A stretch of DNA of 64,000 nt, from assembly GCA_013141415.1 (NCBI GenBank), contig JABFQY010000001.1, positions 248,001 to 312,000 of the forward strand. The letters are read 5' to 3'. Below the pieces are notes generated by a model. The model was given only the letters and a program-made list of their open reading frames with translations. It did no database searches and was not told the origin of the DNA. Positions 28,114 through 29,580 of this stretch are shown in pieces. A program made the translations under genes and the position numbers. The stretch comes from Kiritimatiellaceae bacterium. Lineage in GTDB: Bacteria; Verrucomicrobiota; Kiritimatiellia; Kiritimatiellales; Tichowtungiaceae. Within the stretch, counting starts at the first letter, position 1. The number at the start of each line of letters is the position of its first letter.

Positions 28114-29436
28114 ATGATACACCCCGCGAGAATTCACCGGCTTAACGACAAACCCGCCCGCAAAGGCGGGTTTGTTTTATACTGGATGCAGCAAAGCCAG
28201 CGCGCCGAGTGGAACCACGCCCTCGAATATGCCGTGGAGCGCGCCAATGCGCTTGGGTTGCCGGTCGCCGTCGTTTTCGGCCTGATGGACGATTATCCCG
28301 AAGCCACCGAACGTCACTACGCCTTCATGCTCGAAGGACTGCGGGAAACATTCCAGACATTGGAGAAACGCGGCATCGGCGCATTTATCGGACGCGGACA
28401 TCCGGCAGAGGTCGCGCTTAAAGCGGGTAAAGACGCCGCGCTGATCGTCTGCGATATGGGGTATCTGCGCCATCAGGCCGAATGGCGCGCAAAAGTTGCC
28501 GAAAAAGCCGGATGTGAAGTCGTCGAAATCGAAAGCGATGTCGTCGTGCCGGTCGAAACCGCATCGGATCACGCCGAATACATGGCCCGCACCATCCGCC
28601 CGAAACTCCTGAAACGGCTGGATGAATTTCTTCAGCCTGTTCGAGAAGTAAAACTTTCCAAACCTTGGAAACGCGACGAGGGCGTCGCGTCTACGTTAAT
28701 CAAGACGGTTCCCAAGGTAGACGCGACGCCCTCGTCGCGTTTTAAAGGTGGAACAGCGGAAGCGAAGAAGCGGCTGAAACGGTTTATTGCGGAGAGTCTG
28801 ACGGTTTATGAAGCGCACAGCAACCAGCCGCAGACCGACGACATTTCCATGCTGAGTCCGTATCTTCACTTCGGACAGATTTCGCCGCTCTACATCGCGC
28901 TGGAAATTCAAAAGGCTGATCCGAAAAGCCGCTTTCTGGAACAGCTGATTGTCCGCCGCGAGCTGGCGATGAACTTTGTCTGGTTCACGCCGGACTACGA
29001 CCGCTTTTCCTGTCTGCCGGATTGGGCAAAGCTGACGCTGAAAAACCACGCCAAAGATAAACGGGAATTTCTCTACACCCGTGAACAGCTGGAGCAGTCG
29101 CAGACACACGATCCGTACTGGAATGCGGCCATGACCGAAATGCGCGTCACCGGATTCATGCATAACTACATGCGGATGTACTGGGGTAAAAAGGTTTTGG
29201 AGTGGAGTCCGTCACCGGAAGAAGCGTTTGAAACGCTGCTCGCCATCAACAATAGATATTTTCTGGATGGCCGCGACCCGAACTCCTACGCCGGAGTTGC
29301 CTGGGTCTTCGGCAAACACGACACCGCGTGGGCTGAGCGTTCAATCTTCGGGAAAACGCGCTACATGAACGCCGTCGGCCTTAAACGCAAATGTGATATC
29401 GATGGGTATGTGGAGAAGGTGGGAAAAGCTTGTTGA
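28114..29436 (+). CDS. phr: Class II deoxyribodipyrimidine photolyase
   Basis: The 440-residue FAD enzyme repairs UV-induced cyclobutane dimers using light. Class II features include YWMQQSQRAEWNHALEYA near residue 24, LSPYLHFGQISP near 248, RRELAMNFVW near 290, TGFMHNYMRMYWGKK near 350 and NNRYFLDGRDPNSYAG (then VAWVFGKHD) near 385. Residues about 186-210, in the linker between the alpha/beta domain and the FAD domain, are encoded by a palindromic insertion in frame. The linker is variable in the family, so the enzyme is probably functional. Confidence 0.93.
   Translation: MIHPARIHRLNDKPARKGGFVLYWMQQSQRAEWNHALEYAVERANALGLPVAVVFGLMDDYPEATERHYAFMLEGLRETFQTLEKRGIGAFIGRGHPAEVALKAGKDAALIVCDMGYLRHQAEWRAKVAEKAGCEVVEIESDVVVPVETASDHAEYMARTIRPKLLKRLDEFLQPVREVKLSKPWKRDEGVASTLIKTVPKVDATPSSRFKGGTAEAKKRLKRFIAESLTVYEAHSNQPQTDDISMLSPYLHFGQISPLYIALEIQKADPKSRFLEQLIVRRELAMNFVWFTPDYDRFSCLPDWAKLTLKNHAKDKREFLYTREQLEQSQTHDPYWNAAMTEMRVTGFMHNYMRMYWGKKVLEWSPSPEEAFETLLAINNRYFLDGRDPNSYAGVAWVFGKHDTAWAERSIFGKTRYMNAVGLKRKCDIDGYVEKVGKAC
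28670..28741. repeat. REPIN-like palindrome inserted in frame in phr
   Basis: Two perfect 25-bp inverted arms (28670-28694 and 28717-28741) flank a 22-bp centre. Each arm is itself GTAG plus a hairpin (ACGCGACG, loop CCCT, CGTCGCGT). The 72-bp element adds 24 codons without a stop or frame change. Confidence 0.85.
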
Positions 29437-29492: not shown

Positions 29493-29513
29493 GTAGGCTC
29501 GCTTGGTCCAAGC
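29493..29513 (+). repeat. GTAG-headed hairpin upstream of recA
   Basis: GTAG is followed by GCTTGG-T-CCAAGC, resembling a single REP unit. A second, imperfect inverted repeat pairs GAGCCTCGTG (near 29449) with CACGTAGGCTC. It lies in the phr-recA gap. Confidence 0.4.
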
Positions 29514-29552: not shown

Positions 29553-29580
29553 GTGGAAGCGGCAGGGATGCCGCTTCCAC
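29553..29580. repeat. Perfect 12-bp hairpin upstream of recA
   Basis: GTGGAAGCGGCA and TGCCGCTTCCAC flank the loop GGGA. The GTGG head and stem-loop resemble a REP unit; no T-run follows, so it is not an obvious terminator. Confidence 0.6.

Follow-up and report, generated by a model that had tools for sequence, protein, structure and literature searches.

A GTAG-type REP dimer translated within a class II photolyase, and RAYT transposase domains nested in frame in housekeeping genes of the same bacterial order

We found that the class II photolyase gene of a Kiritimatiellaceae bacterium carries, in its interdomain linker, an inverted pair of GTAG-headed REP sequences that is translated with the rest of the protein. 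Very probably, an inward-facing GTAG-type REP dimer took over an unstructured linker, with a RAYT transposase encoded in frame within priA as its likely partner, and the in-frame survivors remain translated. REPs are non-autonomous single-strand elements whose movement is generally attributed to RAYT (HUH/Y1) transposases. We also lean, with less assurance, towards a broader reading in which RAYTs are long-term in-frame residents of housekeeping genes across the order, among them PriA, exonuclease VII, the CCA-adding enzyme and a B12 radical SAM protein. They would be passed on together with the host gene and shielded from loss, since a disruptive deletion would in most cases damage that gene, and from there they would seed REPs elsewhere, the photolyase gene being one example. 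The window is the whole 64,000-nucleotide stretch that was analysed; it belongs to the 2.2 Mb source genome, G000, the other G numbers being the relatives compared; several of the genomes are draft MAGs.

Table 1. Coordinates of the photolyase elements (window positions) and of the nested RAYT domains (locus positions)
Feature	Coordinates	Strand	Remarks
Class II deoxyribodipyrimidine photolyase gene, 440 aa	28114..29436	+	Profile, model and selection evidence
TTTCCAAACCTTGGAAA, copy of the second palindrome family	28655..28671	.	Abuts the left REP; in the G005 linker too
Left REP	28669..28694	-	GTAG head at 28691-28694, minus strand; arm AAACGCGACGAGGGCGTCGCGTCTAC
22-nt spacer between the REP arms	28695..28716	.	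Not conserved relative to G012
Right REP	28717..28742	+	GTAG head at 28717-28720; arm GTAGACGCGACGCCCTCGTCGCGTTT
RAYT domain in PriA	L184:536-3433 = G000 C3:504535-507432	-	Photolyase REP family flanks and interrupts the RAYT
RAYT domain in XseA (exonuclease VII large subunit)	L191:1218-3140		Flanked by REP GTAGGACAGGCTTCCAGCCTGTC
RAYT domain in B12 radical SAM DUF4080 protein	L190:2284-4437		Flanked by GGCAAGCGGGACGCTTGC-type repeats

The host gene is a class II photolyase, as the earlier note had recognized. TIGR00591 (phr2) is its top NCBIfam match (500.6 bits, below the cut-off of 550), PF00875 is also matched, and the AlphaFold model (pLDDT 90) has M. mazei class II photolyases as its top PDB matches (TM 0.90). 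The gene is under purifying selection when compared with the sister species G008 (dN 0.03, dS 0.6, dN/dS approximately 0.05). The two arms, AAACGCGACGAGGGCGTCGCGTCTAC and GTAGACGCGACGCCCTCGTCGCGTTT, are perfect reverse complements and GTAG-headed hairpins as originally described, with a length of 26 bp instead of the 25 bp first given, and each forms a hairpin by itself (ACGCGACG-AGGG-CGTCGCGT). The 440-aa reading frame runs through both arms with no stop, as also claimed at the outset, and residues 186-210 are REP-coded. Folded as a single strand, the palindrome reaches −43.4 kcal/mol (z = −10.0). In the AlphaFold model the enzyme core is confident and the REP-bearing linker is a low-confidence coil (pLDDT 78, 55 and 70 in consecutive blocks from residue 181, the value of 55 being that of residues 191-200); the REP segment is therein predicted to be disordered, and its placement in the interdomain linker agrees with the earlier assignment. 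Shortly 3' of the gene, at window positions 29493-29513, lies a further GTAG-headed palindrome, GTAGGCTCGCTTGGTCCAAGC.

Upon searching the genome for the arm, as the earlier note had suggested, the 23-mer GTAGACGCGACGCCCTCGTCGCG was recovered in 66 copies at ≤2 mismatches, with 0 for the reversed-pattern control, and within the window 0.00 chance matches are expected at ≤3 mismatches (100 shuffles). Both photolyase arms have one and the same sequence, which is also that of the commonest genomic copy, and the REP-type identity originally proposed is borne out, the element being a GTAG-headed REP dimer. REP pairs in this genome (37 clusters) are mostly GTAG-outward and 16-20 nt apart, whereas the photolyase pair is GTAG-inward and 22 nt apart, unlike nearly all others; one pair in the PriA-nested RAYT likewise faces inward. 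Additionally, 16 of the 37 clusters lie in frame within protein genes (domains checked), with two each in TilS and PrmC, three each in an AddB-like nuclease and PriA, and the remaining host genes being MetG, HemL, Mpl, CoaB, a HAD phosphatase and the photolyase. Intragenic sites are found empty in relatives; for example, TilS residues 151-177 are missing in G006, where 6 nt separate the flanking matches, and neither PrmC REP is present in G010. A second palindrome family, with the pattern TTTCCAANNNTTGGAAA and a variable 3-nt loop, occupies 30 sites per strand in the source genome and 30-412 sites in each of 14 congeneric genomes, against 0 for the control.

A search for Y1_Tnp domains placed three RAYTs of the source genome in long open frames, namely PriA (965 aa), XseA (640 aa) and the B12-binding radical SAM DUF4080 protein (717 aa). 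Clean empty sites exist in congeners for each of them: XseA 193/415 in G005, G008 and G004, the radical SAM gene in 11 genomes, and PriA in G008, G004, G009 and G001. Further hosts are the CCA-adding enzyme in four congeners, HypF, and HsdR, the last being a fragment at a contig end. In the second family of the order, RAYTs occur in PriA (nine genomes), the radical SAM gene (seven genomes, two sites) and the CCA enzyme, and from sequence we identify two more second-family hosts as probable CmoB and diphosphomevalonate decarboxylase. Two second-family nested RAYTs sit on megabase contigs of G024 and are therefore no fragmentation artefacts. Across the order, the in-frame RAYT domains total 36 and are spread over eight families of host genes, with 16 PriA genes carrying one and two RAYT lineages occupying one PriA site. 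Y1_Tnp scores above the Pfam cut-off in PriA, XseA, the radical SAM protein, HypF, the CCA enzyme and HsdR. NCBIfam NF047646 (REP_Tyr_transpos) hits the RAYTs with E-values of 4e-14 to 2e-20, but at 53-73 bits, short of its cut-off of 80. The HUH motif is kept in 36/36 domains and the catalytic tyrosine in 35/36. In a tree of the 36 domains, RAYTs group mostly by host gene, with PriA type 1, PriA type 2, CCA and XseA forming groups of their own (support at deeper nodes is weak) and the PriA groups divided between the two families. The HypF RAYT falls inside the radical SAM group, which is evidence for movement between hosts. Pairwise dN is 0.13-0.26 and dS is 1.6-4.2 or saturated, with ratios of 0.03-0.16 that are only approximate since dS is near or beyond saturation; imprecise as they are, these ratios show RAYT domains constrained by purifying selection. 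Elsewhere in the window, positions 2194-2451 hold what remains of a stand-alone Y1_Tnp transposase gene, decayed and interrupted by a TAG stop. Downstream of the photolyase, positions 29553-29580 read GTGGAAGCGGCAGGGATGCCGCTTCCAC, and the identical 28-mer stands as a solo palindrome in the G008 PriA (L205), which has no RAYT, at the site that the RAYT occupies elsewhere; it is possibly a scar.

The photolyase 23-mer is present at six of six priA1-RAYT loci with 0-1 mismatches (G000, G010 and G003, and G037, G017 and G029 of the other family), and was not detected at the priA2 and xseA RAYT loci checked. Congeners with the priA1 RAYT have 66, 17 and 7 REP copies versus 0-10 in the eleven without it (exact one-sided p = 3/364, from species that are not independent and with some genomes incomplete). 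From the 23-mer at all six type-1 loci and this copy-number association, we infer that the RAYT nested in frame in PriA is most likely the mobiliser of the photolyase REP. Genomes that lack the priA1 RAYT also have a few members of the family, which counts against this account to the extent that other transposases may contribute to REP spread. The partner transposase would then be encoded within the genome's own priA, where this REP both flanks and interrupts it. Survival would be limited to copies that keep the frame and land in tolerant linkers, the photolyase presumably tolerating its own segment, so that REPs would stay on as translated segments, as would entire RAYTs in other genes.

We compared the photolyase linker across 38 class II homologs. 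From L173 to G212 it comprises 38 residues here, joint shortest of the set (median 46), and the D-x-S-V motif of most homologs (LKLDRSV in G008, G009 and G007) is missing: the old linker, including this conserved motif, has been replaced by REP sequence. A REP lies at one common linker offset (33 nt) with 0 mismatches in G000 and with 1 and 3 in its congeners G012 and G005, respectively, and in each of the three, 0/2000 codon shuffles gave a match as good. The G012 photolyase (85% identity) has a linker of equal length, and both of its arms are from another REP subfamily, the first arm differing from GTAGACGCGGTGCCCTCACCGCG by 1 mismatch; the subfamily GTAGACGCGGTGYCCTCACCGCG is found genus-wide. 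In the left arm, the stem differs between G000 and G012 by compensatory changes (CGCGACG/CGTCGCG versus CGCGGTG/CACCGCG). G005 has the left arm alone and retains KLDR. Read from sequence, REP occupancy of the site appears to predate the split of G000, G012 and G005, and one lineage or more appears to have since had its REP replaced or converted. The first REP would have been gained before that split, the left arm being common to all three; a right arm stands in G012 and G000, whose REP subfamilies differ. Because diverged DNA and another REP subfamily stand at the same codon offset in G012 and G005, the slot is old, though its present REP sequence may be young.

The sister species G008 (95% amino-acid identity) has no REP in the linker and keeps the ancestral motif, which speaks against the preferred account and implies either loss of the REP in G008 or recombination of the linkers. 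Its linker (L093) holds an unrelated in-frame insert, an interrupted palindrome of approximately 100 bp of the CCACCCC...GGGGTGG type, whose 41-mer has no other copy in the genus at ≤3 mismatches; a repeated family is thereby ruled out for it. In G009 the linker carries TTCCAACCATTGGAA, a copy of the second palindrome family, and together with the G008 insert this marks the photolyase linker as a recurrent landing place. The linker of L094 (INTA.AUR.068) was considered as a decayed REP and rejected (8/23 mismatches, with 318/2000 codon shuffles equally good); that genome has no REP of the photolyase type at ≤3 mismatches.

These comparisons bear on how the palindrome arose. The earlier note took it for a very recent insertion of 24 codons, and a clean arrival of a complete REPIN in an ordinary linker would suit the identity of the arms with one another and with the family's commonest copy, yet we regard it as improbable. 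It is largely refuted by the linker lengths (38 residues against a median of 46), with the 24 codons being the span of the element and no net insertion, and it also has against it the missing ancestral motif, the inward orientation and the other-subfamily REPs that these codons hold in G012 and G005. The latter two relatives also set aside the inference of recency from identical arms; relatives sharing the residues with diverged DNA had been named as the finding that would speak against it, and they go part of the way there. It is more doubtful still, to the point of being very improbable, that the palindrome arose in place, by quasi-palindrome template switching or by selection for an mRNA or DNA hairpin, with no mobile element involved. 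Template switching can perfect imperfect palindromes, which together with the lack of net insertion lends this account some appeal, and it may explain why the two photolyase arms are identical. However, the 23-mer exactly matches a dispersed 66-copy family and the G012 arms match another dispersed subfamily, so switching within one locus is insufficient.

A further account, unlikely although less so than those two, is that the REP-coded peptide or the in-frame RAYT domains have been domesticated for a host function, for instance with the RAYT aiding PriA at hairpins. The age of the RAYTs in PriA, XseA and the CCA enzyme, their purifying selection and their retained catalytic residues agree with it, but the distribution is patchy, with PriA lacking the RAYT in G008, G004, G009 and G001 while other species keep it. 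Moreover, two unrelated RAYT lineages share the PriA site, the hosts are many and unrelated, and the photolyase segment is predicted to be disordered. Under the reading that we prefer, of REPs and RAYTs persisting as translated passengers, residence in frame in essential genes would simply explain their persistence over millions of years, much as intein placement does, with the transposase expressed along with the host gene and hard to delete out of frame. The positions of the nested RAYTs would also map, by natural insertion, which loops of PriA, XseA and the CCA-adding enzyme are tolerant.

Overall, the result for the photolyase is modest: its REP belongs to an already known kind of intragenic element and sits in a disordered linker. 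Di Nocera et al. 2013 (PMC3733652) already describe GTAG REPs lying in frame inside genes for DNA repair, one of which encodes a photoreactivating enzyme of Thauera; they also report many Opitutus terrae (a verrucomicrobium) genes with intragenic GTAG REPs, and different REPs at about one site in recB of two Xanthomonas species. Our element resembles that superfamily in its GTAG head, hairpin, dimers and in-frame copies in repair genes, and differs in having a switch of REP subfamily, compensated within the stem, at orthologous codons, and in that the associated RAYT is also intragenic and in frame, no such RAYT being described in the part of that paper available. Rickettsia palindromic elements, cited in PMC3733652, are likewise translated in frame within protein genes, and the photolyase element shares this; according to that paper, RPE-4 and RPE-6 are CGTC-type with no dedicated transposase, whereas ours has a GTAG head and a RAYT. 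The in-frame RAYTs in host genes look new: our literature search returned no report of RAYTs in frame in housekeeping genes or of transposase domains in PriA, which does not prove that none exists. Unexpectedly long Y1 proteins have been discarded as gene fusions or annotation errors (PMC6006769), and some fused Y1 transposases so dismissed may be real. The photolyase element has GTAG at one end of a short perfect stem-loop, a dispersed copy number far above chance, inverted dimers and an associated RAYT. REPIN/RAYT (TnpA-REP) systems are alike in their inverted REP pairs, in the HUH motif and tyrosine, and in a RAYT gene bordered by its own REPs, but their RAYTs are stand-alone genes (PMC3116915, PMC2817692, PMC8266576), whereas those described here are nested within host genes.
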